A DNA stretch of 56,554 bases from Thermodesulfobacteriota bacterium (GTDB lineage: Bacteria > Desulfobacterota > BSN033 > UBA1163), in NCBI GenBank assembly GCA_026415035.1, contig JAOAHX010000021.1:1-56554 (forward strand). The letters run 5' to 3'. The first letter of the stretch is position 1. The number at the start of each line of letters is the position of its first letter. Made by a program: the position numbers and the translations under genes. The notes under the pieces are model-generated. The model searched no databases and was not told the DNA's origin. It worked only from the letters and a program-made list of their open reading frames with translations. This document shows positions 24,338 to 47,079 of this stretch, one piece after another.

Positions 24338-24408
24338 GGTGGACCCGTCCTTTCTCATTCCAGAAATGGACGATTTCGTGGGGGAGTCGTGGCTCGACCT
24401 TTTGACAT

Positions 24409-25269
24409 TTATGACCCTTCGATCGATTGGCGGATGGCTTTTTCGACGAGGACGCCGACCATCGCTTTTCGGTACTCTGCCGACCCCCGGATATCGGTTA
24501 TGGGATGGCACTCCTGCCTCGCCTCTTCCGCTGCTCGTTCGATGAGGCGATCCTCCAAAGGGTTTCCCTCGAGGACCTTTTCGGCCTTCTTCGCCCGGAT
24601 GGGAGTGGGGGCGACCGCCCCGAGGGCGATGCGAGCCCGTTCACAGATTCGGGTGGAGGGGTTGAGCGTCAATAGGACCGCCACATTGACGACGGCGAGA
24701 TCGACGCTCCTTCTCCGCCCCAGTTTCAAATAGACCCCCCTGCTATGGGTTGGAGGGTAGGGGAGAAGGACCTCCTTGAGGACCTCCTTTTTGCCCAGTG
24801 CGGTTTCGCCAGGGCCAAGGAAGAAGGTTTCGAGGGGGAGGCATCTCTCCCCCTTTTCGCTGACCAGATGAACCTGAGCTTCATAGACGAGCAAGGCAGG
24901 GGCCGTCTCCGCAGAGGGCGAGGCGGTGCAGAGATTTCCTCCGAGGGTTCCGACATTGCGGACCTGAACAGAGCCGAGCTGACCCGAGGCCAAAGAGAGG
25001 ATAGGGAAATACCTTCGGATCTCCTCGGACTGCTCGATCCTCCGGTGGGTGACCAGGGCGCCTATTTTAAATTCTCCGTTGGACTCCACATGATCGAGTC
25101 CAGGGATCCCCCTTAAAGAGATGAGGACATCGGGAGAGAGTTTCTTCTGGCGGATCATCACCAGGAGGTCTGTGGCCCCGGCGATCAATCTGGCCCGATC
25201 CCCGTATTGATCGAGCAGCCGGAAGACCTCCTCCAGGGTTCGGGGTTTGAGGTAGTCGAATCGGTTCAT
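24409..25269 (-). CDS. Molybdenum hydroxylase FAD-binding subunit (CoxM/XdhB-like)
   Basis: A 286-residue subunit with an N-terminal PCMH-type FAD domain (LLDQYGDRARLIAGATDLLVMI; FAD loops RNVGTLGGNLCTASPSAET, about 100-118) and a C-terminal CO-dehydrogenase flavoprotein domain ending near KAMVGVLVEKA. It takes electrons from the 2Fe-2S subunit to an external acceptor. ATG 25269 is preceded by GAGGAG at 6 bases; an upstream in-frame start at 25323 would overlap the transporter gene. It follows the TRAP transporter genes closely, suggesting one transcript. Confidence 0.92.
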   Translation of the reverse strand: MNRFDYLKPRTLEEVFRLLDQYGDRARLIAGATDLLVMIRQKKLSPDVLISLRGIPGLDHVESNGEFKIGALVTHRRIEQSEEIRRYFPILSLASGQLGSVQVRNVGTLGGNLCTASPSAETAPALLVYEAQVHLVSEKGERCLPLETFFLGPGETALGKKEVLKEVLLPYPPTHSRGVYLKLGRRRSVDLAVVNVAVLLTLNPSTRICERARIALGAVAPTPIRAKKAEKVLEGNPLEDRLIERAAEEARQECHPITDIRGSAEYRKAMVGVLVEKAIRQSIEGS

Positions 25270-25291
25270 AACGCTCTCCTCGGGAATCTCT

Positions 25292-31395: not shown

Positions 31396-31452
31396 ACGTT
31401 CTCCTTAGAAAAGAGGAATAACACGATACCTCCCAAATGTCACGAAGAAACG

Positions 31453-33555
31453 TCATCCGCCCGATCCACTCCTTAGATCAATCCATAAAAAACCGAACTC
31501 GTCCACCCTCACGGTGGCGTCTTCTCCGACGACCACGGTGGATTCCTTCTCCTCGATGATGGCTGGCCCGCGGAAGGTGGCCTTCGGAAAGAGCTGGTAG
31601 CGATCGTAGACCGTAAAGGGGATGAACGTCCTGGCCAGCTGGGAGTAAGCCAGGCGACTGCCCTTCGTCGCCTTTTCAAGGGATTTTCCTTCCGGGTTAA
31701 GCCTCTGGAATTGAATCAGTCGCTCGGGGAGGCTCGCCCTCACCTTGAAGTTGATGAACTCCACCTCCGAATCGGGGTAGGTCCTTCCGTAAAGTTTCTC
31801 GTAGACCTCGTCGAACCGGCGCCGGATCTCTTCTTTGGTCATGTTCGTGAAGGGTTCGTTTGGAATCGGGACAGGGGTCTCAGAACCCTGGCCCACAAAA
31901 CGCATGTCGAGAGAGCGTTCACATCGGATCTCCGATTTGGAGGCCTGCTTCTGAAGGACCCTCATGGCCTCCTCTTCGAGCTGTCGGAAGATCCCCTCAA
32001 TCTCCTTGAAATCGGCGGCCCCTAAGGCCACCTTATGACTTCTCAGCACATCATAGGCCCTGGGGGCAGTGAAAAACCCGAGGGCCGATCCCACCCCGGC
32101 ATTGGGCGGAACGATGAGGCGGGGGGCCCCCAACTTTTTGGCGAGGCCATAGGCATGGACCGGCCCGGCTCCGCCAAAGGCTACGATGGTGACCAGACCT
32201 GGGTTCCCTCCCTTTTCGGCGATATGGGTCTTTGCCGCGGCCGCCATCGTCTCATTGATGAGGTCGTGGATGCCCCATACCGCTTGGATGTACGGGACCC
32301 CGAGGGGCCGGGCGACCTTCTCCTCGACCCCGATGCGGGCCGCCTCCTTGTCGAGTCTCATCTTGCCTCCGAGGAAGTAATTCTCGTCAAGGTATCCCAA
32401 GAGAAGGTCGGCATCCGTGACACAGGGTTCCGTGCCCCCGAGGCCATAGCAGATCGGCCCAGGATCGGCCCCTGAGCTTTCCGGACCCACCTGGAGCGTT
32501 CCCATCCGGCTCACCCTCGCGATGCTTCCCCCTCCGGCCCCGATCTCCATGAGATCGACCACAGGCACCTGGATGGTGAGGCCGCTTCCCTTCATGAACC
32601 TCTGGACCCGACCCACTTCGAAGGTGGGGACGATGCCCGCTTCTCCCTTCTGGATGAGGCAGGATTTTGCCGTGGTCCCGCCCATGTCGAAGCAGAACAT
32701 CTCTTGGATATGGAACAGCTTTCCGTAATATTGTCCAGCGATGACCGCCGCGGTCGGGCCGGACTCGATGATCCGCACGGGGAATTCCGAGGCCGTTTCG
32801 ACGGAGGTGACCCCTCCGCTGGAGAGCATGATGAAGAGTTTGCCTCGGAATCCGAGACCCTCCAGCCTTCCCGAGAGCTTGGAGAGGTATCTTCCAGTGA
32901 GGGGCTTGACGTAGGCATTGGTCACCGTGGTGCTCGTCCTCTCGAACTCCTTGATCTGGGGGAGGACCTTGAAGGAGATGGAGACCGAGACCTCCGGCGC
33001 TTCCTCCAGGATGATCTCCTCGAGCATCTTTTCGTGGACGGGATTTTCAAAGGAGTTGATCAGACAGACCGCGATCGACTCGACCTTTAACTTCAGAATC
33101 TTCCGAACGACCTCCCTGGCCTCCTGCGGATCCAAGGGCTTCAACACGCTGCCATCGCTGCGGATCCTCTCATCGACTTCGAAGCGAAGGTGGCGGGGGA
33201 TGAGGGGCTTGGGAAACTCGGCAAAGATATCGTAGGGGGCATATCGTAATCCCCTCCCGATTTCGAGGACGTCGCGGAACCCTTTGGTGGTGATCAAGGC
33301 CGTCTTGGCCCCTTTTCTCTCGATGATTGCATTGATGACCAGGGTCGTGCCGTGGATGACCTCGTCGAGCCTTTCCACGAAGCGGGGAAGGTCTTTCTCA
33401 AGGCCCCGGATTCCCTCCTCCACGGCGTCGGAGGGGTCCTTAGGGGTGGTGAGGCATTTGTAGGTCCTGACCTCGCCGGTCTGGTCGTTCAGAAGAACGA
33501 AGTCTGTGAAGGTCCCCCCGATATCGCAGCCCAACCGGTAAATTTGGTCCGACAT
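31453..33555 (-). CDS. Hydantoinase A/oxoprolinase family subunit (HyuA-like)
   Basis: A 700-residue HyuA subunit with an N-terminal actin/Hsp70-like ATPase fold (GCDIGGTFTDFVLL, 9-22; FDMGGTTAKSCLI, about 290; FGGAGPVHAYG, about 460). It phosphorylates the substrate amide or ketone with ATP. Length matches HyuA/AcxA relatives. GGAGG precedes ATG 33555. No third small subunit gene of the acetone-carboxylase type is seen next to the pair, so hydantoinase- or oxoprolinase-like amidohydrolysis is as likely as carboxylation. Confidence 0.9.
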   Translation of the reverse strand: MSDQIYRLGCDIGGTFTDFVLLNDQTGEVRTYKCLTTPKDPSDAVEEGIRGLEKDLPRFVERLDEVIHGTTLVINAIIERKGAKTALITTKGFRDVLEIGRGLRYAPYDIFAEFPKPLIPRHLRFEVDERIRSDGSVLKPLDPQEAREVVRKILKLKVESIAVCLINSFENPVHEKMLEEIILEEAPEVSVSISFKVLPQIKEFERTSTTVTNAYVKPLTGRYLSKLSGRLEGLGFRGKLFIMLSSGGVTSVETASEFPVRIIESGPTAAVIAGQYYGKLFHIQEMFCFDMGGTTAKSCLIQKGEAGIVPTFEVGRVQRFMKGSGLTIQVPVVDLMEIGAGGGSIARVSRMGTLQVGPESSGADPGPICYGLGGTEPCVTDADLLLGYLDENYFLGGKMRLDKEAARIGVEEKVARPLGVPYIQAVWGIHDLINETMAAAAKTHIAEKGGNPGLVTIVAFGGAGPVHAYGLAKKLGAPRLIVPPNAGVGSALGFFTAPRAYDVLRSHKVALGAADFKEIEGIFRQLEEEAMRVLQKQASKSEIRCERSLDMRFVGQGSETPVPIPNEPFTNMTKEEIRRRFDEVYEKLYGRTYPDSEVEFINFKVRASLPERLIQFQRLNPEGKSLEKATKGSRLAYSQLARTFIPFTVYDRYQLFPKATFRGPAIIEEKESTVVVGEDATVRVDEFGFLWIDLRSGSGG

Positions 33556-33640
33556 GAAATCCTCCGGCTATTCCACTTCGCCTCGTCGATCCCTCCTTCG
33601 AGAAAAGGATCGAACCCTCGACGACGGAGACGGATGAGGT

Positions 33641-35662
33641 TCATCGATGGACAAAGTTCGCATTGACCTTCGGCCCATTCTTGAGGAAGTTCTCGATCCC
33701 GATGGCCCTATCCTCGGTGTAGAAGCATTCGCCGAAGATCTTGGCCTCGATTTTGAGGCCTTCGCTTAACGTCGTCTTGGCACCTTCCAGGATCGCCTTT
33801 TGTAAAAGCTCGTCGATCTTCCGACTCAGGTGGCCGATATCGACTTCCGGAAGGGTCGGGGGGATCGGGATAGGCCCTTTCGGCATCGTGGGAGGGGTAA
33901 CCTTTTTCGATAGAAGGTCGTTCACCCATCGAATTCCGGCCTCGATCAGGTCGCCATCGACTTCCTCCTGAATCAGGCCGATCTCCTTGGCCTGGGCTGA
34001 CGAGATCGGATTGGCACTCCGGAGGATGGGCCAGGCCTTCTCCAGGCCGATCAGCCTTGGGAGCCTCTGGGTCCCTCCGGCTCCCGGAATGAAGCCGAGC
34101 CTCGGCTCAGGCTGGGCCACGAAGACCTTCTGCCCTTTTTTGGCAATCCGGACGGTGCAGGCCATGGCGATCTCGTTTCCACCGCCAAAGGCCAGCCCGT
34201 TCATGGCACAGACCACGGGCTTGCCGAGGTTCTCGATGAGGTCGAGGATGGCGTAATTCTTGAGACACGCCGCCTCCGCCTCCTCGGCCGTCTTTTGGGC
34301 GGCGAGCATGCCGATGTCGGCGCCGGAGACAAAGGCCCTCGTTCCAAAACCGGTGAGGATGGCCCCTTTGACGGCGGGATCTTTCTGAATCTCCTCGAAC
34401 GTCTCCTTGAGCTGTTGGAAGACCGCCTCGTTGAGGGCATTGAGAACTTTTGGCCTCCGAATCTTAACGATGGCGACCCCCTCCTTGTCTTCTCTCAAAA
34501 CGACGGGGATCTTCCAGGGCCCTCCTGTGGCGGCCTGTCGTTTCAGGATCTCATCGATCTTGAACCCGGGATTCTCTTTGGCATAGGCCTCCACCAATTG
34601 GAGGGACTTTTGGATCCCCAACTGGTTCATCAGGGTGAAGGGCGGGGTCATCACCAGACCCATCTCCACCCCGAGCTCGAGATCGCTGATGTTGGTGATG
34701 CCGCTTCCTACAATTTCGCAGGCCATCCCGATGTAGGCGCCGGTGACCCGGTCCACCACCGCCTGATAGGTCTCGGGAGAGTAGTCGACCTTCTCCCCTT
34801 TGGCAGCCACCTCCCAGGGTTTTCCGGACTTCACCTGGTCATCGAGGATCTTGGGGGATCGATACCAGGGCATGATCGTCGAGGTCATGCCATTGAGGCC
34901 ATGTTGGGTGAGGGGATTTCCTCCGGCCAAATTGTGGGCGGTGAAGGGGCCAACCCCCATGCCCAGGGCCTGTTGGACGATGGCGTCGGCCTGTTTGACC
35001 GTCGCAAGGCCTTTTTCAACCGTGAGGGCGGCGGCGAGAAAGACCCCTTCGAAGATCGGGTTCAGGGCGAAGCCGTAACGGGGCTTCACATGGATGGGGG
35101 CCTTTCCGATGAACTCGTAAAACTTCATCAGAAACTCCACCAGGCCGGGGTCGGTCTCTTTGGCCGGGATGATTTCGAGGGCGATGTTCCGATCGGCGGG
35201 GAAGAAGTAGTGGATCGCCAGACACCGGGCTCTGTCCTTCACCTTGGAGAAGATATCGTCAGGGACGATATGGGAGGTGTTGGTGGCGAGGATGGCAGTC
35301 TTTGGGCAGACCTCCTCGCAGCGGCTGAAGATCTTCTCTTTGACCTCGATGCTCTCGAAGGCGGCCTCGATGACGAGGTCGGCATCGCCAAGCATCGAAT
35401 AGTCGGTGGTGAAGATCAGGTTCTTGAAAATGGACTCCGCTACCTCCTTCTTATAAATCCCCTTCTCGGCGGCCTTGGCCATCTTCGACTCGGCCTTCTT
35501 TGACCCCGATTCCAGGGCAGAGGAAACGATATCGACGACGACCACCGGCACCCCGTAGGAATAGAGGTTTTGGCTGAAGTGGAGCGCGATGTCGGGGCCA
35601 ATGTTTCCCGATCCGATCACCCCCACTTTACGAATCGTTCGACCAAACATCGTCCATGGCAT
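33641..35662 (-). CDS. 3-hydroxyacyl-CoA dehydrogenase / enoyl-CoA hydratase fusion (dehydrogenase first)
   Basis: A 673-residue bifunctional beta-oxidation enzyme. Residues 8-195 are the NAD-binding dehydrogenase domain (GVIGSGNIGPDIA; catalytic His in HYFFPADRN, Glu in LEIIP). Residues 195-375 are the dehydrogenase C-domain. Residues 395-580 are a crotonase domain with both catalytic glutamates in GGGNEIAMAC and AQPEPRLGFIPGAGGTQRL. This order is the reverse of FadB, where the hydratase is first, and recalls the bifunctional proteins of some archaea and anaerobes. AAGGAGG precedes ATG 35662. It sits beside the acyl-CoA mutase, so it probably oxidises the rearranged CoA ester. Confidence 0.92.
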   Translation of the reverse strand: MPWTMFGRTIRKVGVIGSGNIGPDIALHFSQNLYSYGVPVVVVDIVSSALESGSKKAESKMAKAAEKGIYKKEVAESIFKNLIFTTDYSMLGDADLVIEAAFESIEVKEKIFSRCEEVCPKTAILATNTSHIVPDDIFSKVKDRARCLAIHYFFPADRNIALEIIPAKETDPGLVEFLMKFYEFIGKAPIHVKPRYGFALNPIFEGVFLAAALTVEKGLATVKQADAIVQQALGMGVGPFTAHNLAGGNPLTQHGLNGMTSTIMPWYRSPKILDDQVKSGKPWEVAAKGEKVDYSPETYQAVVDRVTGAYIGMACEIVGSGITNISDLELGVEMGLVMTPPFTLMNQLGIQKSLQLVEAYAKENPGFKIDEILKRQAATGGPWKIPVVLREDKEGVAIVKIRRPKVLNALNEAVFQQLKETFEEIQKDPAVKGAILTGFGTRAFVSGADIGMLAAQKTAEEAEAACLKNYAILDLIENLGKPVVCAMNGLAFGGGNEIAMACTVRIAKKGQKVFVAQPEPRLGFIPGAGGTQRLPRLIGLEKAWPILRSANPISSAQAKEIGLIQEEVDGDLIEAGIRWVNDLLSKKVTPPTMPKGPIPIPPTLPEVDIGHLSRKIDELLQKAILEGAKTTLSEGLKIEAKIFGECFYTEDRAIGIENFLKNGPKVNANFVHR

Positions 35663-35713
35663 AACGTCCCTCCTTAGATTCGAAAATCGAGCGTGAGATT
35701 CAGGACTTCCTTC

Positions 35714-37342
35714 TCAAAAGATGCTCGGCTCTTTGAACTCTCCGTAGACCTCTTTAAAGACCCTTGTCATCTCTCCCACGGTCGCATAGGCCTTGCAACA
35801 CTCGAGGAGATAGGGCATGACGTTTCTCTCCGCCCTGGCGGCGCTTTCGAGGTCTTTCAAAAGTTGGGCGACCTTTCGATTGTCTCTCTCGCGCCTCACC
35901 GCCTGGGTTCGTCGGATCTGCTCTTCGGCCGACTCCCATCGATATTCATGGAGCTCGACCTCCATCTCCTCCCCTTCGGTATATTTGTTCACCCCGACCA
36001 GGATCAATTCCCCTCTCTGGATGCCCTTTTCGTATTCATAGGCCTGTCGGGCCACCTCCCGTTGCACATAACCCGTCTCGACCGCCTGGATCATCCCGCC
36101 GATCTCCTCCACCCGTCTCATCTCTTCAAGGATCTTCTCCTCCATCTGCTTGGTGAGGGTCTCGATGAAATAGGAGCCGGCAAGGGGGTCGACGGTATCG
36201 CGAAGTCCTGTCTCCTCCATCAAGATCTGGAAGGTCCTGAGGGAGAGGAGGGCTGCCCTCGGGGTCGGGATGGTATAGGCCTCGTCGAAGGAGCAGAGGG
36301 CCGTGGTCTGGGCCCCTCCCAGGGCAGCGGCCAGGGCATAATACGCCCCCCGGATGATGTTATTCTCCGGCTGAGCCTTTGTCATCCCATAGCCGCCTCC
36401 GCCGAAGAGCCCACGGAGATAGAGCGAACGAGGATCTTTGGCCCCGTAGCGCTCTTTCAGGTTTTTGGCCCAGAGCTTGCGGGCGGCCCTGAATTTGGCC
36501 ACCTGTTCCCAGAGGTTTCCAAAGACGTTGAAATTGAAGGTGAAACCCCGAACGAAATCGTCCACCTGGTAACCCCTTCGGAGGACCTCGTCGATGTAGG
36601 TGTTGGCGATTTCGAAGGCGTAGGCGATTTCCTGGGCCGGGGTGCACCCGGATTCCCGGATATGGTAACCACAGACGCTGACCGGGTTCGTCCGGGGGAG
36701 TTCCTTCATGGAATATTCGATCGTGTCACCGATGAGCCTCACCGCAGGCCTGACCGGGAAGATCCACGCCCCCCGTCCGATCATCTCCTTTAGGATGTCG
36801 TTTTGAGGGGTGGCGCTCACCCGGTCTTTCTTGAATCCATACCTCTCTGCTGTGGCCTGAAACATGGCCAGCATGATACTGGCCACGGCGTTGATGGTCA
36901 GGCCGACCCCGATCCGGTCGAGGGGGATGTCTTTAAAGGCGATCTCGAAGTCTCTCAAGGTATCAACCGCCATGCCCACCCGTCCCACCTCCCCTTCTGC
37001 CAGGGGATCGTCGGAGTCGAGCCCCATCTGCGTGGGAAGGTCGAAGGCGACATTGAGGCCGGTCTGTCCGTGGGAAATTAAAAATTTGAAGCGTTCATTC
37101 GTCTCCTCGGGGGTGCCGAAGCCCGTATATTGCCGGGTGGTCCATTCCCTGCTCCGGTATCCCTGCGGATGGATCCCCCTGGTGAAGGGATAGACGCCGG
37201 GAAGGGCGAGATCTTTTTCGGGGTCGAACCCGACCTCCTCGAGGTCCTTCTGGGTGTAAACCGGCTTCACATGAATCCCGGATTGGAGGATCACATCGAG
37301 GATCTCGTCCTTTTCGTTCTTGATATATCTGGCCACGCCCAT
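35714..37342 (-). CDS. B12-dependent acyl-CoA mutase, large subunit (methylmalonyl-CoA mutase family)
   Basis: A 542-residue TIM-barrel subunit of the methylmalonyl/isobutyryl-CoA mutase family, without the B12 domain, which is a separate gene downstream in the window. Family landmarks: PGVYPFTRGIHPQ (48-60), RQYTGFGTPEETNERF, GLNVAFDLPTQMG, VCGYHIRESG (conserved His), KFRAARKLW and AQPENNIIRGA. The usual TQTAGS-type and HTNSxDE motifs read LFGGGGYGM and ALCSFDE, so the acyl pocket is altered. The Asp typical of 2-hydroxyisobutyryl-CoA mutase is Ala in NVAFD. A 1,2-rearrangement of an acyl-CoA is expected; the substrate is open. Confidence 0.88.
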   Translation of the reverse strand: MGVARYIKNEKDEILDVILQSGIHVKPVYTQKDLEEVGFDPEKDLALPGVYPFTRGIHPQGYRSREWTTRQYTGFGTPEETNERFKFLISHGQTGLNVAFDLPTQMGLDSDDPLAEGEVGRVGMAVDTLRDFEIAFKDIPLDRIGVGLTINAVASIMLAMFQATAERYGFKKDRVSATPQNDILKEMIGRGAWIFPVRPAVRLIGDTIEYSMKELPRTNPVSVCGYHIRESGCTPAQEIAYAFEIANTYIDEVLRRGYQVDDFVRGFTFNFNVFGNLWEQVAKFRAARKLWAKNLKERYGAKDPRSLYLRGLFGGGGYGMTKAQPENNIIRGAYYALAAALGGAQTTALCSFDEAYTIPTPRAALLSLRTFQILMEETGLRDTVDPLAGSYFIETLTKQMEEKILEEMRRVEEIGGMIQAVETGYVQREVARQAYEYEKGIQRGELILVGVNKYTEGEEMEVELHEYRWESAEEQIRRTQAVRRERDNRKVAQLLKDLESAARAERNVMPYLLECCKAYATVGEMTRVFKEVYGEFKEPSIF

Positions 37343-37360
37343 GTTATGCCCCCATGTGAC

Positions 37361-37762
37361 TCAAGGTCTCGGTTTGACGTTCTCGTTGATCCAGCGAATC
37401 GCCTCTTCGAAAGGGGTCCCCCCAGGGAAGATCCCTTTGATGCCCATCTTTTGAAGGAGAGGGATATCCCTTTTGGGAATGACCCCTCCGACCACAACGG
37501 TTTTGTCCTCCAGACCTTTCTCTTTCATCTTTTTCATCAGCTTTTCACAGATGGGCAGATGTGCCCCGGACATGATCGACAGGCCGACCACGTCCACGTC
37601 CTCCTGCAAGGCGGTCTGAACGATCTGGTCGATCGTTTGGTGAAGGCCGGTGTAAATGACCTCCATGCCGGCATCCCGGAGGGCCTGGGCAACCACCTTG
37701 GCTCCCCGATCATGTCCGTCCAATCCTGGTTTGGCGACCAAAATGCGAAGCTTTCTCTCCAT
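37361..37762 (-). CDS. B12-binding small subunit of acyl-CoA mutase
   Basis: A 133-residue cobalamin-binding domain in the base-off/His-on mode: PGLDGHDRGAK (DxHxxG, His ligand to cobalt), GLSIMSGAH, and VVGGVIP. This is the size of the HcmB/IcmB/MCM C-terminal domain. It pairs with the large subunit encoded 18 bases downstream. ATG 37762 follows GAGGAGAGAG. It is the first structural gene after the regulator. Confidence 0.93.
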   Translation of the reverse strand: MERKLRILVAKPGLDGHDRGAKVVAQALRDAGMEVIYTGLHQTIDQIVQTALQEDVDVVGLSIMSGAHLPICEKLMKKMKEKGLEDKTVVVGGVIPKRDIPLLQKMGIKGIFPGGTPFEEAIRWINENVKPRP

Positions 37763-37791
37763 CTCTCTCCTCGATGATCAGGAAGGTGGGC

Positions 37792-38478
37792 TTAAGGGAT
37801 AAGCCTCCCTTCCCGGATCTCCTTCAGGATAATCTCCCTCCCTCGTTCCAGATGGGCCCGGACAAGGCTCTCCACGAGGCGAGGCTCTTTCTTTTTCATG
37901 GCGTCGAGCATCTGCCGATGGTCCGAAACCGAACTCTTGAACCCATTGCGGGTATGGAGCAGGGCCGATCGATAACGGAAGAAATAGTCTCGATACCCAT
38001 GGATCATCTCGATCAATTTCCTGCTTTTGCAGGACCGATAGAGGAGGTCGTGAAATTCGGTGAAGAGACGAACCGCCTTCTTATCGTCCCCCTCCTTAAA
38101 GGCCGTCTCCGATTCGGTTATCTTTTTTTCGAGGGCGGAGAGGTCATCGGGGGTCATGTGTATCGTGGCGAGGTAGGCGGCATAGCTCTCCAGGGCGATG
38201 CGGATGCCGAAGATCTCCTCGACGTCCTCCTTTGTGAACTCGCGGACGGCGAATCCTCCTCTGGGAAGGCGCCTGATCAGATCGTCCTGCTCCAGCTTAT
38301 GGAAGGCCTCCCGGACGGGCGTGCGGCTGATCCCCATTTGCCTGGCCAGGGCCTCCTCGACAAGCCTCTGGTTGCCCTTCAATTTCCCGTGGAGGATCGA
38401 CCTTTTTAAGGCCTCGTAGACGACTTCACGAAGGGGTTTCCGCTTTTGGAGGTTGAGGCCGCCGAGCAAATTTTCCAA
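37792..38478 (-). CDS. GntR-family transcriptional regulator with FCD domain
   Basis: A 228-residue FadR-subgroup regulator. The winged helix is at about 15-80 (LVEEALARQMGISRTPVREAFHKLEQDDLI) and the FCD ligand-binding domain at about 85-220 with metal-binding-type histidines (TEFHDLLYR, SDHRQMLDAM). The start is TTG 38478 with GGAGG 8 bases upstream; no nearer ATG covers the domain. It is the first gene of a 13-gene same-strand cluster. FCD regulators usually sense the acid or CoA ester of the pathway they control, and a GTATAC site overlaps the predicted promoter just upstream, so autoregulated repression is likely. Confidence 0.92.
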   Translation of the reverse strand: MENLLGGLNLQKRKPLREVVYEALKRSILHGKLKGNQRLVEEALARQMGISRTPVREAFHKLEQDDLIRRLPRGGFAVREFTKEDVEEIFGIRIALESYAAYLATIHMTPDDLSALEKKITESETAFKEGDDKKAVRLFTEFHDLLYRSCKSRKLIEMIHGYRDYFFRYRSALLHTRNGFKSSVSDHRQMLDAMKKKEPRLVESLVRAHLERGREIILKEIREGRLIP

Positions 38479-38555: not shown

Positions 38556-39266
38556 TCAAGGTTGAATTGGCGAGCAGTGGACTTTCCACCACCGGTAGGT
38601 CAGGGAGGGTGGTTTTAGGCGGCGTTTCAGGATATGGCCGGCCAGGTCGATCGCCCGACTGGCCAGGTTGAGGATGGCCGTGTCGCTCGTGGCCACTACC
38701 CCCGGAAAGGCGTTCAGGATGTTCTCTGGAACCTTCACGGCGTGGGCCTCACCCGAGATTCCCTCCCGTTTCAAACGGGCTTCGATCCTCCGAGCCAGCT
38801 CGCCGCTCTTCGAGATGGGCGCATCGAACAGGAAGAGGGTGTTTCCGGGTTCGGCCTTTTTCAGAAGGTCGAAGATCAGGGAGAGGGCCTCGTCGGTCTG
38901 GGTTGACGCCTTGTAGTTTTTGGAAAGGCCCGAGATGTCCCGGACGAAACCATCATCGCCGAGGACGAGGGGACGCCCGCGGAGCCCCGCTTCGAGGGTG
39001 ATGAGGACATTATGGCCATCTATGGCCAGATCCTTCCCCCGGAGATATGAGAGAGAGACCTGTTTGGCCCTTCTCCATTTCGATTCACTCTTCGAAAAGA
39101 TCGCCCGGTGAAGGAGATGGCGTTGAGCGAAGGTGAGTTGGTAGCGGTTTCCTACCAGTTCTAGAGACGGTTTTCTCGGAAACCCCCGGTTGAGGAGGTA
39201 ACGAAAGTCTCTGGCGGCCTCCAAGAGAGACTCGATGTCGTGTGGAAGGAGGTTCCTCTTTCTCAT
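38556..39266 (-). CDS. DUF434 family protein (uncharacterised, NYN/PIN-like C-terminal part)
   Basis: A 236-residue protein of unknown function. The N-terminal third (LLEAARDFRYLLNRGF, then SLELVGNRYQLTFAQRHLLHRAIFS) matches the DUF434 family, and the C-terminal part (DLAIDGHNVLITLEAGL, LFLFDAPISKSGELA, VVATSDTAILNLASRAIDLAG) has the acidic pattern of a NYN/PIN nuclease-like fold. ATG 39266 was chosen because the in-frame upstream stretch to 39353 crosses the neighbouring promoter region and is low-complexity. It lies between the catabolic regulator and the divergent flavoprotein operon, and may be unrelated to both. Confidence 0.75.
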   Translation of the reverse strand: MRKRNLLPHDIESLLEAARDFRYLLNRGFPRKPSLELVGNRYQLTFAQRHLLHRAIFSKSESKWRRAKQVSLSYLRGKDLAIDGHNVLITLEAGLRGRPLVLGDDGFVRDISGLSKNYKASTQTDEALSLIFDLLKKAEPGNTLFLFDAPISKSGELARRIEARLKREGISGEAHAVKVPENILNAFPGVVATSDTAILNLASRAIDLAGHILKRRLKPPSLTYRWWKVHCSPIQP

Positions 39267-39340
39267 TTCCCCCTGTTTGGGTTTACTTGGTTGAGGGGAG
39301 GGGTATGTGTTAATAATAGACCCTTCGAGAAGGAGAAGCA

Positions 39341-40783
39341 ATGGGGATCGCAAAAAAATTATTGGATCGATTCGGTCCCGAGAGGTTTATCTGCGACCCC
39401 TTGAGATTGGAGCCCTATTCGAGGGATTTTAGCCTTTCGCCTCCTCAAAGGCCGGAAGGGGTGGTCAAGGTGAAGACCGCCGAAGAGGTTCGATTTGTCC
39501 TCGGGGTTGCACGAGACTATTCGGTTCCGATCGTTCCCTCCAGCTCGAGGGTCCATTTTTATGGCCTCACGATACCACAAAAGGGGGGGCTTGTCCTCGA
39601 CCTATCGGAGATGGACAGGATTCTGGAGATCGACGAGTCGAACCGAAGGGTCAGGATCGAAGCGGGTGTATCGTGGGGGAAACTCTGTCCGGCTTTGAGG
39701 GAGAAGGGATTAAGGGTGATGATGCCACTCTTCCCCCATCCCTTAAGGTCGGTGATCACCGACCTCTTGGAAAGGGAGCCGCTTGTGAACACGGTCTACG
39801 AGTACGGGGAGCCCCTTCAAGGGATGGAGGTGGTCTGGCCCAACGGCGAGATCTTCCGGACAGGTTCGGCCAGCACGCCAGGGTATCCTGATTCGATCGC
39901 AGGAGGGGTCAACCCGACCGGCCCCGGAATAGATTTCTACCGGCTTTTACAGGGCGCCCAGGGAACCCTGGCCGTGGTGACCTGGGCCAGTCTCAAGATC
40001 GAAACCCTTCCGAAGATCGATAAACTTTTCTTCGTACCCCTTTCGAACCTCTCACAAGGGTTGGCCTTTCTCTCAACAATCCTGAGGCTTCGGGTGGGGC
40101 AGGAGTGTTTTCTGCTCAACCGGAGAGTCCTCTCTTTAATCCTCAACAGGGGGGGAGGAGGGGCCGACGGGGAACTGCCGACCCATGCCATCTTCATCGT
40201 CCTCAGCGGCCTTCAACGACGTCCTGAATTGAAGATCGCCTACGAGGAGGCCCTCTTGAGAGAGGCCCTCAAAAATTGGTTTCCCGAAGAGAGGGTCCTT
40301 GAGGAGATTCCTCATGGCCCTCCACCCGGGGAGTTTGTGAAAGGCCTCCGAAGCCCTTGGCCCGATCCGGAAACGTATTGGAAGCACCGGTGGAAGAAAG
40401 GCTGTCAAAGCCTCTTCTTCCTCACCAAGCCCTCCCGGGTCGAACGGTTCGCGGAGATCGTCAAGGATATGGCGAACTCCTTTGGATACGAGGGGGAAGA
40501 CATCGGCCTCTACCTTCAGCCCATCGAACACAACCGGGCCTGCCATCTGGAGTTCCATTTCTACTACGATCCTGAGGACGGATCCGAAAGGGAACGAATC
40601 CAAATACTCTTCCGGGAAGGGGTACGACGTTGTTTGGCAGAGGGGGCTTTCTTCACCCGGCCGTATGGAGAGGCCTCAACGCTCGTCTTCGAAAGGGCGT
40701 CGGCATATGCGAGGGCGCTCAAAAAGGTAAAGGCCGTCTTCGACCCACTTCAACTGATGAATCCTGGTAGGCTCTGTTTTTAG
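39341..40783 (+). CDS. FAD-linked oxidase (PCMH/GlcD-VAO family)
   Basis: A 480-residue flavoprotein with an N-terminal PCMH FAD-binding domain: RPEGVVKVKTAEEVRFVL (38-55), VPSSSRVHFYGLTIP in place of the usual PRGxGT loop, GGLVLDLSEMDRI, and GAQGTLAVVTWASLKIE (about 210). A C-terminal substrate domain ends DPLQLMNPGRLCF, the family tail. Relatives oxidise 2-hydroxy acids or phenolic and benzylic alcohols and pass electrons to an FeS or cytochrome partner. AAGGAG lies 5 bases before ATG 39341. Eight bases separate its stop from the FeS/FAD fusion, which probably is its partner. Confidence 0.85.
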   Translation: MGIAKKLLDRFGPERFICDPLRLEPYSRDFSLSPPQRPEGVVKVKTAEEVRFVLGVARDYSVPIVPSSSRVHFYGLTIPQKGGLVLDLSEMDRILEIDESNRRVRIEAGVSWGKLCPALREKGLRVMMPLFPHPLRSVITDLLEREPLVNTVYEYGEPLQGMEVVWPNGEIFRTGSASTPGYPDSIAGGVNPTGPGIDFYRLLQGAQGTLAVVTWASLKIETLPKIDKLFFVPLSNLSQGLAFLSTILRLRVGQECFLLNRRVLSLILNRGGGGADGELPTHAIFIVLSGLQRRPELKIAYEEALLREALKNWFPEERVLEEIPHGPPPGEFVKGLRSPWPDPETYWKHRWKKGCQSLFFLTKPSRVERFAEIVKDMANSFGYEGEDIGLYLQPIEHNRACHLEFHFYYDPEDGSERERIQILFREGVRRCLAEGAFFTRPYGEASTLVFERASAYARALKKVKAVFDPLQLMNPGRLCF

Positions 40784-40791
40784 AGGATAAA

Positions 40792-43770
40792 GTGGCTGAA
40801 AGGATCGAACTCGACATCAACCGGATCGAAAATTTCCTCTACGAACTGAAGGGATGCGTCCGGTGCAAGGGGTGCCTCTGGGTCGATCATATCTATATGC
40901 CAGGGGTCCGGTTCTCCACGAGGTGTCCCAGCGCCGCCCACTTCCTCTACGACGCCTTTGGCGCTTATGGAAAGATGAGGATAGGGCTGGGTTATGTAGA
41001 AAGGCGACTCCCTCCCTCCGAGACGCTTCGCCATCTCTTCTACGCCTGTCCCCTCTGTGGCGCCTGCGATGTGGGATGCAAAAGGAACCTCGACCTCGAG
41101 ATCGGTCTCGCCCTGGAGGCGATTCGGGTGAAGCTGGTCAAGGATGGCCTGGGTCCCATGCCGGTCCATCGGGAGATCGCCCATCAGATCGAAAAACAGG
41201 GGAATCTCTTCGGGCTTCCTTACGAAGGGAGAAAGGGATGGCTCTCCCGTGCCATCCGTCTGACCGAAGGAGCGAAGGTCCTCTATTTTGTCGGGTGTTA
41301 TGGTTCCTATTATCATTCTGAAATCCCGCAGGCCACGGTGAAGATCTTGGAGGCCTCCGGGGTCCCTTTTCAGCTCATGGAAGATGAGAGGTGCTGCGGA
41401 AATCTCCTCTTCTCGGTCGGGATGATTGAAGAGGCCAAAAGAGAAGCCGAGCTTAACCTCCAGAGCATCAGAAAGTCCGGAGCCACCACGCTTTTGACAA
41501 CCTGCGCCGAGTGTTACCGGATGTGGAAGGTCGACTACCCCAAAATCTTCGGCCTCTCCACCCATGAACTGGGTTTCGAAGTGAAACATCTGGCCGAGTT
41601 TGTTTACGAGGGGATAATAGAGGGGAGGATAAGTTTCAGCCATCGTTTGGAGAAGAGGGTTGCTTATCACGACTCGTGCAGCCTTAGCCGGCTGAGCGAA
41701 CCCTGGACGAGATGGTCGGGAGAACGGAGGCGATGGGGTGTGCTCGATCCCCCATTGGTTAGGAGGCGCGGGACTTTCGGGGTCTATCATCCCCCCAGGG
41801 AAATTTTGGATCGGATTCCGGGAATACACTTGATGGAGTTCCACAGGAATAGAGAGAATAGTTTCTGTTGCGGGGCAGGCAGGGGGACCTTGGAGGCCTT
41901 TCCCGATTTTGCCCTTTGGTCTGCGGGCCAGAGAATAGAAGAGGCCTTCGACCTTGGGGCCGAAGCCATCGTTTCGGCCTGCCCTCGCTGCAAGAGAAAT
42001 TTTCTAAACGCGGCGAAGGAGAAAAAGGGAGAATTACAGCTCCTCGACCTTTCGGAGGTCATTTCCTCAGCGATGGGAGGAGGACCCATGGGGGTTCGAG
42101 CCGCGAGGTGTCGAAAGATGATACCGAAAGAGGCTTCAAAGGAATTGGAATCGATCGTGGGGAGGGAATATTTTACGATGGATCCGGTGCTCTGCGAGGG
42201 ATACCGGGCAGGCCCCCGGGGATATGAATGCGGGCTTGGCTATGAGAAGGTGATGGCCCGGGTTCCAGCGGCGGTCGTCCTTCCGGCGGAGACCCCCGAG
42301 GTCCAGGCAATCGTCCAGACGTGTTATCGATTTCAGATCCCCTATGTCCCTTACAGCACCGGTTTCTATGGTGCCAAATCGGCACCCCACGTGGAGGGAG
42401 CCCTCCTTATCGATCTCAAGAGGATGGCCCATTTCGAGATCGACGAGGACCACCTTATGGCCGTGGTAGGGCCCGGGATCGTCTATTCCCAGCTTCAGGC
42501 CGAGGCCCTCAGGAGGGGGATGTACGTCCTGGTAGGAGGTGGAGGGGGGCAGGTTTCGGTCATCGCCAACATGATCAATGACGGGACCTCTCCCCATAGC
42601 TACCGCTTTGGCCTTGCCCAGCGAAGGATCCTCGGGACGGAGCTCGTCCTTCCCGATGGAGAGGTCCTCCGCTTAGGGTCTCTGAGCACGGAGGAGGACC
42701 CCTTTTGGGGAGAGGGTCCGGGCCCCGATCTTCGCGGGCTGTTGAGGGGAGGGACGGGCTGGAGAGGGTCCTTCGGAATCGTCACGAAGATGGCCCTGAA
42801 GCTGATGCCCTTCCAACCCGAACCCCTTCGACCCGAAGGGATTTCGCCCCACACCGCCTTGAGGCTTCCGCAGGAGAGGGTGAAATGGGTCAATATCCGG
42901 ATGCCAGACCGGGAGTCGCTGGTAAAGGCCGTCTACGAGATCGGAAAGGCCGAGATCGGGGCGGCCGTGATGAGGGTTCCGCTTTTCTGGAGGACCGTGG
43001 CGAGGTCAGAAAGCAAGGAGGAGTTCTGGAAACGGTGGTCCGAGGAGAGCGAGGAAAGCATCGAGAAGTTCCATCTCCTGAGGGTTCTCCTCATCGGATA
43101 TGGATCTGAAGAGCAGATGGCCTATGAAGAAAAGGTGCTTTACGATATTGTTAACGAGCTCGGAGGGGAAATCCGGAGGACGAAACCCACCGACGAGTCA
43201 TGGTTCAAGAATGCGGACTCGGCCGGGATGTGGCTCATGTGCGGAGGGTACCTTTCGGTCGAATATAGTTCCGATACTCTAAACCATGCGATCTTACAGG
43301 GAGAGGCCATGGCCGATTTGAAACAGGGCTACACGCCTCCCCTGATGCCCGACTACGGGGAGAGGGGATGGTTTCAAAGCATCGAGATGGGGCATCTGGG
43401 TTATTCGGAGTATCTGATCTATTGGGACCCCGAGGAGGTTTTGGAGGCGGCAGACCGGTTTTTCTTGAAGAGCCTTGAGGAAAACATTCGAAATCGATTC
43501 TATACCGCGATGCTCGGTCCCAATCAGCCCCTCTCTCTCACCGGCCCGGCGTATGGTCCCAACTATCATCGTTGGCTCCTTGCCATCAAGAGCCAGTTCG
43601 ATCCTCAATGGCTCTGTCATCCGCCCCACCCCCTGGCCCACGATCGATTCCTTGAAAGAAGGGGGTGGGCGAGGCCGAAAGAAAGTTCAGAGGGTTCCCC
43701 GACCGGTGAAGAAAGGGGGCGGGAGGGCGAGGTCGACCAGAGGTTGACAGGGAAGAGCGAAAGGGGATAA
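40792..43770 (+). CDS. Fusion of HdrD/GlcF-like iron-sulfur protein and FAD-linked oxidase, 992 aa
   Basis: Residues 20-100 bind two [4Fe-4S] clusters (C22, C25, C28 with C45-Pro; C86, C89, C92, C96). Residues 165-410 hold two CCG repeats (RCCGN and CAECYRMW; SFCCGAG and CPRCKR). Residues 450-960 are a second PCMH FAD oxidase (VLPAETPEVQAIV; STGFYGAKSAP; SVIANMINDGTSPHSYRFG; TGWRGSFGIVTKM). A 27-residue Arg/Trp-rich insertion at 302-328 splits the second CCG motif. The start is GTG 40792 with AGAGGA just upstream. The protein resembles a one-piece GlcD-GlcF and could move electrons between a hydroxy acid or phenolic substrate and a thiol or quinone acceptor. Confidence 0.85.
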   Translation: MAERIELDINRIENFLYELKGCVRCKGCLWVDHIYMPGVRFSTRCPSAAHFLYDAFGAYGKMRIGLGYVERRLPPSETLRHLFYACPLCGACDVGCKRNLDLEIGLALEAIRVKLVKDGLGPMPVHREIAHQIEKQGNLFGLPYEGRKGWLSRAIRLTEGAKVLYFVGCYGSYYHSEIPQATVKILEASGVPFQLMEDERCCGNLLFSVGMIEEAKREAELNLQSIRKSGATTLLTTCAECYRMWKVDYPKIFGLSTHELGFEVKHLAEFVYEGIIEGRISFSHRLEKRVAYHDSCSLSRLSEPWTRWSGERRRWGVLDPPLVRRRGTFGVYHPPREILDRIPGIHLMEFHRNRENSFCCGAGRGTLEAFPDFALWSAGQRIEEAFDLGAEAIVSACPRCKRNFLNAAKEKKGELQLLDLSEVISSAMGGGPMGVRAARCRKMIPKEASKELESIVGREYFTMDPVLCEGYRAGPRGYECGLGYEKVMARVPAAVVLPAETPEVQAIVQTCYRFQIPYVPYSTGFYGAKSAPHVEGALLIDLKRMAHFEIDEDHLMAVVGPGIVYSQLQAEALRRGMYVLVGGGGGQVSVIANMINDGTSPHSYRFGLAQRRILGTELVLPDGEVLRLGSLSTEEDPFWGEGPGPDLRGLLRGGTGWRGSFGIVTKMALKLMPFQPEPLRPEGISPHTALRLPQERVKWVNIRMPDRESLVKAVYEIGKAEIGAAVMRVPLFWRTVARSESKEEFWKRWSEESEESIEKFHLLRVLLIGYGSEEQMAYEEKVLYDIVNELGGEIRRTKPTDESWFKNADSAGMWLMCGGYLSVEYSSDTLNHAILQGEAMADLKQGYTPPLMPDYGERGWFQSIEMGHLGYSEYLIYWDPEEVLEAADRFFLKSLEENIRNRFYTAMLGPNQPLSLTGPAYGPNYHRWLLAIKSQFDPQWLCHPPHPLAHDRFLERRGWARPKESSEGSPTGEERGREGEVDQRLTGKSERG

Positions 43771-43801
43771 ATTGGAAGTAAAGTTTCCGAGGAGGGTTCC
43801 T

Positions 43802-44062
43802 ATGGCCGCCGAAGAGATCAAAGTCTATACGACGCCCACCTGACCCTATTGCAAGATGGCGAAGGAGTTCCTTTCGCAGAAGGGCTATGCCTTTACCGAG
43901 TACGACGTGACCAAAGATCGGGCCGCCCTCGATGAGATGGTGAGGATCTCGGGGGCCCGGAGCGTCCCGGTCATCGCCGCCTGCAACGAAGTGATGATCG
44001 GCTTTGATAAGGCCCGCCTCGAGCAGATGCTGAGCTGCCTGAAACAGAGGACAGAGATTTAA
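43802..44062 (+). CDS. Selenocysteine-containing glutaredoxin (in-frame TGA, Sec-Pro-Tyr-Cys active site)
   Basis: Frame from ATG 43802, preceded by GAGGAGGG (43789-43796), reads 13 codons, TGA at 43841-43843, then runs open to TAA 44060-44062: 86 residues if TGA is Sec. The context is VYTTPT-U-PYCKMAKEFL, the exact place of the first Cys in the CPYC motif, and the rest is a full thioredoxin fold with the cis-Pro loop SVPVI and GFDKARLEQML. Gene callers would report only residues 19 onward (from 43856). It follows the FeS/FAD fusion by 31 bases. It should be a dithiol/selenol oxidoreductase; its substrate is unknown. Confidence 0.9.
43859..43877 (+). promoter_or_regulatory. Candidate bacterial SECIS hairpin for the glutaredoxin TGA
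   Basis: GCGAAGG (43859-43865) pairs with CTTTCGC (43871-43877) in a 7-bp stem with one G-U pair and a 5-base loop AGTTC. It begins 15 bases after the TGA at 43841-43843, inside the coding sequence, which is the normal position for a bacterial SelB-binding element. The loop carries a G as expected, but bacterial elements vary widely, so this is a positional prediction. Confidence 0.6.
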
Positions 44063-44169: not shown

Positions 44170-44204
44170 TTCGGATTTCGAACTGCCGATTTCGGATTTA
44201 TGAA
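44170..44204. repeat. Degenerate heptad tandem at the uvrA-family 3' end
   Basis: Seven-base units TTCGGAT, TTCGAAC, TGCCGAT, TTCGGAT and TTATGAA run from 44170 to 44204, related by reverse complement to the AATCCGA tandem at 13551. The last unit overlaps the stop codon of the minus-strand UvrA-family gene. Confidence 0.6.
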
Positions 44205-46957
44205 TTTTGAAGCCTCCGTCTCAAAAACTGCCCGGTGTAAGATCGAGGCGAGGCCATGATCGCCTGAAGGTCTCCCTCGGCGACGATCCGGCCGCCTTCC
44301 TCCCCGCCTTCGGGTCCGAGGTCGATGATGTAATCGGCCCGGCGAATCAGGTCGAGGTTATGTTCGATGATCAGGAGGCTGTGGCCCTGGTCGAGAAGCT
44401 CCTCTGCGGCGTTCAGGAAGACCTCGATATCGGCCAGGTGGAGGCCGGTGGTGGGTTCGTCGAAGATGAAGAGGTTCCTCCCTTTCGCACCCTCCCCGAG
44501 ATGGAGGGCCAGCTTGAGCCGCTGAGATTCTCCTCCGCTCAGGGTATTGGTCGGCTGTCCCAGGGTGAGATAGCCCAGGCCGACCTTCTTTAAGAATTCC
44601 AGTTTTGAGACGATTTTAGGGTGATTCTGGAAGAAGGAGAGGGCCTCCTCCACGGTCAGGTCCAGGACCTCGGAGATGTTCTTGTCTTGGTACCGGACCT
44701 CCAGGATCTCGGCGCGAAATCTCTTTCCCTCGCAGGCCTCGCAGGTGATGATCACGTCCTCAAGGAATTGCATCTCCAAAACCTGGATGCCCGCGCCTTG
44801 GCAGGCTTCGCATCTCCCTCCGGCCGTATTGAACGAGAAGTGGCGGGGCAGAAAACCGTACCGCTTCGCCTCCCGGGTTCTGGCAAAGAGGTCCCGGATG
44901 TCGCTGAAGACCTTGATATAAGTGGCTGCATTCGACCGGAGGCTTTTCCCGATGGGGGATTGATCCACCAGGATGAGGTCATCGATCTTCTCCAAGCCCT
45001 CGATCGAATCGAAGGAACCCCTCTCGAGGCCCGCCTCTCCATTCCGTTTCCATTTGAACCCCGCATAGAGGATGTGGTGAACCAGGGTCGTTTTTCCGGC
45101 GCCCGAGACGCCGGTGACGCAGGCCATGACATTGAGGGGGATCCGGACGTCCACCCCTTTGAGATTATGGTGCCGGGCGTTTCGGATCAGAATCCAACCC
45201 GATGGGTTCCGGTGGGGCTTGAACATTCCCGAGCAGAGCCCATCTCTCAGGTATCGGGCAGTGAGGGAATCCTCTCTATTCAGAAGGGCTGAGACCTCCC
45301 CCTCGAAGACGACGTTTCCGCCATCCTTCCCTGCACCGGGGCCGAGATCGATGATGTGATCGGCAGACCGGATGACCTCGGGATCATGCTCGACCACGAC
45401 GATCGTATTCCCCCTCGCCTTGAGATGGCCCAGGGCCTTGAGCAGACGGTGGGTATCCCTCGCATGGAGACCGATGCTCGGCTCGTCAAGGACGTAGAGC
45501 GTATCGGTGAGGCCCGATCCCAAGGCCCTCGCCAGGGTGATCCGTTGATACTCGCCGTTCGAAAGGGTTCGGGTCTGCCGGGAAAGGGTGAGATAATCCA
45601 GTCCCACATCGAGCATGAACCGGATCCGGTCCCGAATCTCCTTGAGGAGCCTTCCGGCGATCTTCCTCTGAAATTCCCCCAGGGAGAGGCCCTCGAAAAA
45701 CGCGTAAAGGTCGGAGACGGGCATGTCCGAAAGCTGGGCGATGTTCTTTCCGGCCACCCGGACATAGAGGGCCTCTTCTTTGAGACGGGTGTTTTGGCAG
45801 GTGGGACAGGGCGTATAATCTCGATATCTGCTGAGAAAGACGCGGTAATGGACCTTGTAGCGTTTGCCCTCCATCCATTCGAAGAACCCCTTGAGGCCGA
45901 TGAATTCTTCTTTCCCCTGGAGGAGGACCTCCTTCTGTTCGGGGGAGAGCTCCTGGAAGGGCCTATCGAGGGGGATTCGAAAACGACGGCAGGCCTTGAA
46001 AAGGTAGTCATAAAGGTCTTCGTAAGCAGGCGTGTTCCAGGGGGCGAAGGGCCTCTCCTTGAGGCTCTTTTTAGGATCGGGGATCACCTTCTGCCAGTCG
46101 ATCCCGATCACCCTGCCGAATCCCTGACAGGTGGGGCAGGCTCCCAGGGGGCTGTTAAAGGAGAAGAGGAGGGGTTCGGGTTCGGCAAATTCTCTCCCAC
46201 AGAGATTGCAGGAAAAGCTACGGTTGAATCCCATTTTCCGGCCGTCTTCGGTGATCACCTCAATCCTTCCCCCTCCCAAAGCGAAGCCGCTCTGGACGGC
46301 CTCGTTGAGCCTGGAACGGTTCTTCTCTTCGGTGGAGATCCTGTCGATGATCAGATGAAGGGTCTGACCTTTCTTGAAATGGGAGGGGGGGAGATCGGTC
46401 AGGTTGAGGATTTCTCCCTCTTGGTAGATCCGGTAATATCCATTCTGGATCAGTTCGTTGAGCTTTGTTTCGGCCTTCTCTTTTGGCAACGGGACAGGAG
46501 AGGTGAGGATCACCTTCTGGCCTGGATAACGGGTTAAGATCGTCTCCGTCGCACTTTCCACGGTATCTCCCGAGACCTTGACCTCACAGGCTGGGCAGAA
46601 GACCTCGCCGATTTTGGCGAAGAGGAGCCGAAGATAGTCGTAGATTTCAGAGGCGGTGCCCACGGTAGAGCGGGCGTTCTTTACCGTGTTCTTCTGTTCG
46701 ATGGCGATCGCAGGAGGGATGCCTCGTATGGCCTCCACATCGGGCCGGTCCATCTTCTCGAGGAACTGTCGGGCGTAGGTCGAGAGGGACTCGATGTAAC
46801 GCCTCTGCCCCTCGGCAAAGAGGGTATCGAAGGCGAGGGTGGACTTGCCTGAGCCTGAAACCCCCGTGATGACGGTCGTCTTCCCCCTCGGAATCCGACA
46901 GGAGATATTCTTCAGGTTGTGGGATTTGGCACCGATGATTTCGATGAATTTCTCCAT
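44198..46957 (-). CDS. UvrA-family excinuclease ATPase, probably a UvrA2-like paralogue
   Basis: A 919-residue twin ABC ATPase. Walker A motifs are GVSGSGKST (about 35) and GVSGAGKTT (about 600). Zinc-binding CxxC pairs occur in CPAC, CNLCGREF, CPTCQGFG, CPTCQNTR and CEACQGAG/CEACEGKR. The first signature reads LSNGEYQRI and the second LSGGESQRL. SPIGKSLRSNAATYIKVF departs from the canonical SPIGRTPRSNPATYTG-type sequence, and IEQKNTVKNARSTVG also differs, pointing to a paralogue rather than housekeeping UvrA. ATG 46957 is preferred over an upstream in-frame start at 47050. It is divergent from an ABC-2 exporter pair. Confidence 0.85.
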   Translation of the reverse strand: MEKFIEIIGAKSHNLKNISCRIPRGKTTVITGVSGSGKSTLAFDTLFAEGQRRYIESLSTYARQFLEKMDRPDVEAIRGIPPAIAIEQKNTVKNARSTVGTASEIYDYLRLLFAKIGEVFCPACEVKVSGDTVESATETILTRYPGQKVILTSPVPLPKEKAETKLNELIQNGYYRIYQEGEILNLTDLPPSHFKKGQTLHLIIDRISTEEKNRSRLNEAVQSGFALGGGRIEVITEDGRKMGFNRSFSCNLCGREFAEPEPLLFSFNSPLGACPTCQGFGRVIGIDWQKVIPDPKKSLKERPFAPWNTPAYEDLYDYLFKACRRFRIPLDRPFQELSPEQKEVLLQGKEEFIGLKGFFEWMEGKRYKVHYRVFLSRYRDYTPCPTCQNTRLKEEALYVRVAGKNIAQLSDMPVSDLYAFFEGLSLGEFQRKIAGRLLKEIRDRIRFMLDVGLDYLTLSRQTRTLSNGEYQRITLARALGSGLTDTLYVLDEPSIGLHARDTHRLLKALGHLKARGNTIVVVEHDPEVIRSADHIIDLGPGAGKDGGNVVFEGEVSALLNREDSLTARYLRDGLCSGMFKPHRNPSGWILIRNARHHNLKGVDVRIPLNVMACVTGVSGAGKTTLVHHILYAGFKWKRNGEAGLERGSFDSIEGLEKIDDLILVDQSPIGKSLRSNAATYIKVFSDIRDLFARTREAKRYGFLPRHFSFNTAGGRCEACQGAGIQVLEMQFLEDVIITCEACEGKRFRAEILEVRYQDKNISEVLDLTVEEALSFFQNHPKIVSKLEFLKKVGLGYLTLGQPTNTLSGGESQRLKLALHLGEGAKGRNLFIFDEPTTGLHLADIEVFLNAAEELLDQGHSLLIIEHNLDLIRRADYIIDLGPEGGEEGGRIVAEGDLQAIMASPRSYTGQFLRRRLQNS

Positions 46958-46964
46958 CGATCCA

Positions 46965-46970
46965 ATTATA
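46965..46970 (-). promoter_or_regulatory. Consensus -10 (TATAAT) directly upstream of the UvrA-family start
   Basis: On the minus strand TATAAT lies 7 bases before the ATG at 46957, with no good ribosome-binding site and only a poor -35 (TTTCAA) at 17 bases. If used, transcription would begin at or next to the start codon, giving a leaderless message. The match may be chance in an AT-rich stretch. Confidence 0.3.
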
Positions 46971-47079
46971 AAATATCCCGACCGGGCTTGAAACTTCCTC
47001 TCCTCCACGGTCCCTTGTTTCGCATCCCTCCATGTTTTAGAAATATCCATCCGAGGAGAGAATCGCCCTTGGACGGAAG

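Follow-up and report, generated by a model that had tools for sequence, protein, structure and literature searches.

A probable GlcDEF-plan flavin/iron-sulfur dehydrogenase cassette beside an apparently older, independent selenocysteine glutaredoxin in a Thermodesulfobacteriota contig

Genes and features of the locus

The window is a stretch of 56,554 nucleotides from a Thermodesulfobacteriota metagenome-assembled genome (MAG; assembly GCA_026415035.1, contig JAOAHX010000021.1, positions 1 to 56,554 of the forward strand). It contains three genes, all on the + strand and separated by gaps of 8 and 31 bases, which encode a flavoprotein (OX1), a fused iron-sulfur/flavin protein (FES-FAD) and a selenocysteine (Sec) glutaredoxin. 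The arrangement, the motifs and the in-frame UGA of the third gene, all described in the original prediction, were confirmed. The features of the locus and its surroundings are as follows.

39341–40783, + strand: OX1, VAO/PCMH-fold flavoprotein and subunit 1 of the cassette; 480 aa, ATG start (domain match, AlphaFold2, Foldseek)
40792–43770, + strand: fused FES-FAD open reading frame; 992 aa, GTG start (two genes at all other loci examined)
40843–41088, + strand: ferredoxin-type region (Fer4_8), residues 18–99, with eight Cys for two [4Fe-4S] clusters
41278–42003, + strand: two CCG motifs, Cys 169/201/202/238/241 and 296/359/360/397/400
42077–42090, + strand: GGAGGAGG and in-frame ATG (42088) ahead of the FAD part, a possible independent FAD start (sequence, comparison with congener G007)
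42118–43770, + strand: FAD, second PCMH-type flavoprotein and subunit 3, with FAD_binding_4 at 42265–42678
43802–44062, + strand: Sec glutaredoxin of the Uxx-star/YruB type, 86 aa if UGA is read, with its own AGGAGG at 43790; apparently an independent ancestral gene
43841–43843, + strand: UGA probably read as selenocysteine, U14 in TUPYC (class-wide conservation, SelB, tRNA-Sec)
43859–43877, + strand: SECIS-like hairpin with a 7 bp stem and a 5 nt loop (AGUUC), beginning 15 nt past the UGA
38556–39353, − strand: DUF434/DUF5616 gene, ancestral divergent neighbor of the glutaredoxin (context)
44198–47050, − strand: uvrA, ancestral convergent neighbor of the glutaredoxin (context)
21362–25323, − strand: genes for XDH-type Mo hydroxylase, some 14 kb distant from the cassette on this contig (context)

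OX1 was recognized by an FAD_binding_4 domain of the PCMH type (1.4e-20), while the second gene encodes Fer4_8, CCG (in two stretches) and FAD_binding_4 domains. All 18 cluster-type Cys residues of the latter are in place, comprising the complete ferredoxin-type set (8/8; residues 22, 25, 28, 45, 86, 89, 92 and 96) and the complete CCG set (10/10). In the FES alignment, several relatives have Gly (CAEG) in place of the final Cys of the first CCG motif (CAEC, window residue 241); the ligation of the cluster may thus differ between members of the cassette family.

The glutaredoxin as a selenoprotein

The third gene encodes a glutaredoxin with the motif T-U-P-Y-C, in which U corresponds to an in-frame TGA. 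This UGA is kept in all 20 close homologs from the class of the window, and each of them also has the hairpin 15 nt past it; two G-U wobbles and, in one sequence, one mismatched pair are the sole deviations. The stem is almost invariant and thus offers no covariation as additional support. The genome of the window encodes the elongation factor SelB (365.9 bits, cut-off 242) and has a tRNA-Sec (79.4 bits, cut-off 47). As judged from these sequence features, the selenocysteine is evidently real and the UGA not a chance occurrence. The protein scores above the curated NCBIfam cut-offs for Uxx_star (NF041212; 75.1 vs 66) and YruB (TIGR02196; 89.2 vs 88.55), and therefore belongs to an already known kind of selenoprotein; UxxC selenoglutaredoxins are listed among the known selenoprotein families in a 2026 review (PMC13188914).

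Relationship between the glutaredoxin and the flavoprotein genes

The original prediction had treated all three genes as one electron-transfer unit, in which the selenoglutaredoxin would serve the oxidase and the FeS/FAD protein as their thiol/selenol carrier, with electrons flowing to or from a disulfide. This proposal accords with the shared strand and the 31-base gap in the window, and with the presence of the glutaredoxin close by in both known carriers of the cassette within the class, i.e. the window and its congener G007. The distribution of the genes argues against it: the glutaredoxin is encoded in 19 of 23 genomes of the class versus 2 of 23 for the cassette, and it is present in 17 of the 21 genomes that have no cassette, including G006. 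In cassette-less relatives, the gene order is HyuB-HyuA-HADH-MCM-GntR-(DUF434)-glutaredoxin-uvrA; the glutaredoxin keeps its site between DUF434/GntR and uvrA, and in the window the cassette has DUF434 on one side and the glutaredoxin on the other. The cassette and the glutaredoxin of G007 lie about 640 bases apart, with unrelated ORFs in the gap. The cassette loci fetched from beyond the genus (flanks up to 8–10 kb, shorter on small contigs) yielded no glutaredoxin, and a homolog was undetected at E 1e-8 in 16 of 24 cassette genomes of other classes.

A tree of six flank genes groups the window with G006 and leaves G007, where cassette and glutaredoxin are both present, outside this pair. The simplest history would be a gain of the cassette in the common ancestor followed by its loss in G006, where the glutaredoxin was kept; independent insertions of the cassette in the window and in G007 are also conceivable. 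Presence and absence, synteny, the flank-gene tree and the search of cassette genomes led to the rejection of the glutaredoxin as a partner. Its location beside unrelated genes in relatives is what the original prediction had itself named as evidence against the proposal, and a role as carrier for the cassette is now extremely unlikely. The selenoglutaredoxin is, by all appearances, an older and independent neighbor and not part of the machine.

Further observations concern the surroundings of the glutaredoxin. The DUF434/DUF5616 gene is its divergent neighbor in families f1 and f3 of the class (window 38556–39353, L177, L179), and may be a better candidate for its partner than the cassette. 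Between the FAD gene and the glutaredoxin of G007 (L015:12877–13516) lie two small + strand ORFs that look toxin-antitoxin-like by eye (DUF4258/DUF2283 type). Upstream lies the HyuB-HyuA-HADH/ECH-methylmalonyl-CoA-mutase-like-GntR block (window 29653–38478), which the family retains throughout, unaccompanied by the cassette.

The OX1-FES-FAD cassette as a unit

In 57 loci including the window, the genes for OX1, FES and FAD are adjacent, co-oriented and in the same order, and the pairwise distances of the three subunits correlate with r = 0.90–0.92 across these loci, a value to which shared ancestry contributes, since the genes travel together. Thus, of the proposed three-gene unit, the association of the oxidase with the FeS/FAD protein stands and the glutaredoxin falls away. 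OX1, FES and FAD evidently form a real unit on these genomic grounds, and their products would be expected to assemble into a complex.

The host MAGs are labeled Desulfobacterota, Chloroflexota, Clostridia (Bacillota) and Spirochaetes (Spirochaetota), and members of these four phyla intermingle in the cassette tree, which is consistent with horizontal transfer of the cassette. The window and G007 together make up a long branch with full support. The family also has members in Clostridia MAGs, among them some from chicken gut, and its cultured hosts include Desulfonema magnum and Desulfosporosinus. Two tandem OX1-FES-FAD cassettes are found in the uncultured Desulfobacterium TRIP AH-1 (L067:7974–16904; L141 is the same contig). 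The class of genome G055 has solitary FES-type genes with no flavoprotein partner nearby (L199, L200, L202, L203), and several of the genomes with such genes also have full cassettes.

Fusion of FES and FAD in the window

The description of the FeS/FAD protein as a single chain is valid for this contig and does not extend beyond it, as FES and FAD are separate genes in the other 56 of 56 loci. This indicates that the fusion is private to the window MAG and may be due to one indel. The distance between the separate genes is usually −4 to +23 bases, and in the congener G007 the two are split and overlap by four bases. Together with the GGAGGAGG-ATG retained in frame at 42077–42090, this suggests that the fusion either arose by a small change not long ago or reflects a mistake in the MAG. 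That assembly or sequencing wrongly joined two genes through a single indel is a real possibility, if somewhat short of an even chance, and would be compatible with the interpretation of the locus given below; against it, the 992-codon frame is open from end to end and the linker has no obvious homopolymer error. An AlphaFold2 model of the fused chain based on an unpaired alignment was weak (pLDDT 69, pTM 0.48), too weak for conclusions on an interface.

Folds and catalytic residues

The AlphaFold2 model of OX1 (pLDDT 84.6) had its best Foldseek matches among VAO/PCMH proteins, LDHD and LctD, a subunit of the Ldh-EtfAB complex, and the combination of an FAD_binding_4 domain with a VAO-type fold identifies OX1 as a VAO/PCMH flavoprotein. 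The alignment with PCMH covers the full length (8e-32), and the folds agree (TM 0.81). In PCMH, Tyr384 links the FAD and Tyr473 binds the phenolate. Neither residue is conserved in OX1: in a profile alignment to 1wve, Tyr384 corresponds to the variable OX1 position 349 and Tyr473 to a Thr.

A second candidate function is that of a 2-hydroxyacid dehydrogenase of the GlcDEF/LDHD type, as OX1 matches LDHD in sequence (9.5e-33) as well as in fold, and two flavoproteins with a GlcF-like FeS protein correspond to the GlcDEF plan. The Glu-His pair of the TGEHG sequence is the metal-site and catalytic motif of 2-hydroxyacid dehydrogenases, and TGEHG of the D-2-hydroxyacid dehydrogenases LDHD and GlcD aligns with TRPYG in OX1. 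In addition, the NCBIfam equivalog cut-offs for GlcD (63.2 vs 567.9 bits) and GlcF (24.6 vs 333 bits) were missed by far. A 2-hydroxyacid dehydrogenase is therefore unlikely. For both the GlcD/LDHD and the PCMH assignment of OX1, the fold fits and the catalytic residues do not, and with these residues absent neither chemistry transfers directly.

For FES, profile comparison with solved relatives placed Mycobacterium EtfD first and HdrB second. The original prediction had taken the CCG domains as a sign of disulfide reduction. This sign is non-specific, since GlcF, GlpC, LdhH and TfrB share the CCG architecture, and with EtfD rather than HdrB as the best solved relative the argument for disulfide chemistry lapses. 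No evidence from this analysis supports thiol or disulfide chemistry, and hence the proposed flow of electrons to or from a low-molecular thiol or a protein disulfide.

Genomic setting of the cassette

Among 39 named cassette loci of 15 kb or more, 20 also encode an XDH-type Mo hydroxylase with at least two of its three subunits. The chance expectation for stretches of this length is about 5%, a one-genome control that uses the window's own genome (3.06 Mb, six large-subunit genes). Acyl-CoA ligases are encoded in 12, acyl-CoA dehydrogenases (ACADs) in 10, and CoA transferases in 6 of the same 39 loci. This setting points to catabolism of a CoA-activated organic acid or aromatic compound, and the Mo hydroxylase in about half of the longer loci suggests that the likeliest role of the cassette would be the oxidation of a catabolic substrate.

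One distant cassette (L079:8004–14352) reads OX1-EtfB-EtfA-FES-FAD; its operon includes the ETF genes, and ETF is therefore a candidate electron acceptor at this locus only. Among 129 loci, just 1 had ETF genes detected in its vicinity, and ETF as a general partner was rejected on this basis.

Proposed function and significance

Taken together, the locus is with good probability a dehydrogenase cassette of the GlcDEF plan, OX1-FES-FAD, beside an older and independent Sec-glutaredoxin. Most likely, OX1-FES-FAD would be a GlcDEF-like flavin/iron-sulfur dehydrogenase for a catabolic substrate and a relative in design of the proposed benzene-activating enzyme. The predicted reaction would start with OX1, the protein of VAO/PCMH fold, which may accept a hydride from the organic substrate of a catabolic pathway for carboxylic acids or aromatic compounds. 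FES would then hand single electrons to the second flavin, from which they may pass on to a cellular acceptor such as ETF, quinone or ferredoxin. FES and FAD would act as one chain in the window MAG as it reads. Before the arrival of the cassette, the Sec-glutaredoxin was presumably flanked by DUF434 and uvrA, and it would owe its downstream position to the insertion.

The activation of benzene without oxygen is a long-standing question, and two papers from 2026, which describe a GlcDEF-like heterotrimer under the names 'benzene dehydrogenase' and 'Magic', point to a heterotrimeric design (PMC13416013, PMC13101534). The OX1-FES-FAD family is far wider than the benzene clade described there. 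Its occurrence in lineages and settings unlikely to use benzene provides cultured hosts and a fused chain for testing the design, and limits the value of the cassette as a marker of benzene degradation. A more speculative and rather doubtful extension is that the family represents flavoprotein complexes which, as a general class, activate C-H bonds independently of oxygen and start several anaerobic catabolic pathways, often together with a Mo hydroxylase, with benzene activation as one specialized branch; in that case, the fused FES-FAD chain of the window would be a ready-made simplified model. The separation of the glutaredoxin from the cassette is a caution against deriving function from adjacency in one MAG.

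Comparison with known systems

The glutaredoxin shares the glutaredoxin fold and UxxC motif of the Uxx-star/YruB selenoproteins and passes the cut-offs of both models; no notable difference from these proteins was seen, and the window gene appears not to be tied to the cassette. As to an HdrB/D-like disulfide reductase, the CCG Cys are complete in the window, but HdrB is second to EtfD among the solved relatives of FES. PCMH/VAO flavoproteins share the fold of OX1 and are combined with a cytochrome c, whereas an FeS protein takes this place in the cassette. Glycolate dehydrogenase GlcDEF likewise consists of two flavoproteins and one FeS/CCG protein, but the window proteins score far under the GlcD and GlcF cut-offs, and OX1 has no metal-site motif.

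Published counterparts of the cassette are the putatively heterotrimeric flavoprotein BzS1_12970/80/90, which in BzS1 grown on benzene accounts for about one fifth of the proteome detected (PMC13416013), and the 'Magic' proteins 24–26 of ORM2a, modeled by their authors as a GlcDEF-like heterotrimer (PMC13101534). The window cassette could accordingly be read as an anaerobic hydrocarbon-activating enzyme whose substrate would be benzene or a comparable unsubstituted aromatic compound, given that it has the order, domain plan and similar sizes of proteins that dominate benzene-grown proteomes (PMC13416013, PMC13101534). Several observations make this very unlikely. The pair of type III CoA transferases and the MaoC dehydratase genes adjoining the ORM2a proteins were not recognized beside the window cassette among those window genes that were read. 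Syntenic homologs outside the benzene clade, in strain NaphS2 and Ds. variabilis, are 23–42% identical and have been judged to serve other functions (PMC13416013). Furthermore, the chicken gut and the habitats of other Clostridia that carry the family are improbable niches for benzene degradation. When the G055 class was searched for Magic-like loci, the matches were OX1-FES-FAD cassettes of a more distant kind and FES genes standing alone, and no benzene cluster was recognized.

As an enzyme for a catabolic substrate, the most likely reading, the cassette shares its design with both systems, with which it was compared by their published descriptions. From BzS1 it differs in the fusion of FES and FAD in the window and in its neighbors, which are β-oxidation genes and a TetR gene there; among the longer loci of the cassette family, half have a Mo hydroxylase, and a ligase and an ACAD occur in a quarter to a third. 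With ORM2a it shares the heterotrimer plan; conserved Cys are absent from two of ORM2a's four FeS motifs (PMC13101534), while none of the 18 is missing in the window. With BzS1_12970/80/90 the cassette has in common the order FAD-FeS-FAD, the PCMH-type domains around a CCG/FeS middle subunit, and the approximate sizes (54.5/46.5/65.8 kDa there vs roughly 480/440/550 residues here) (PMC13416013).
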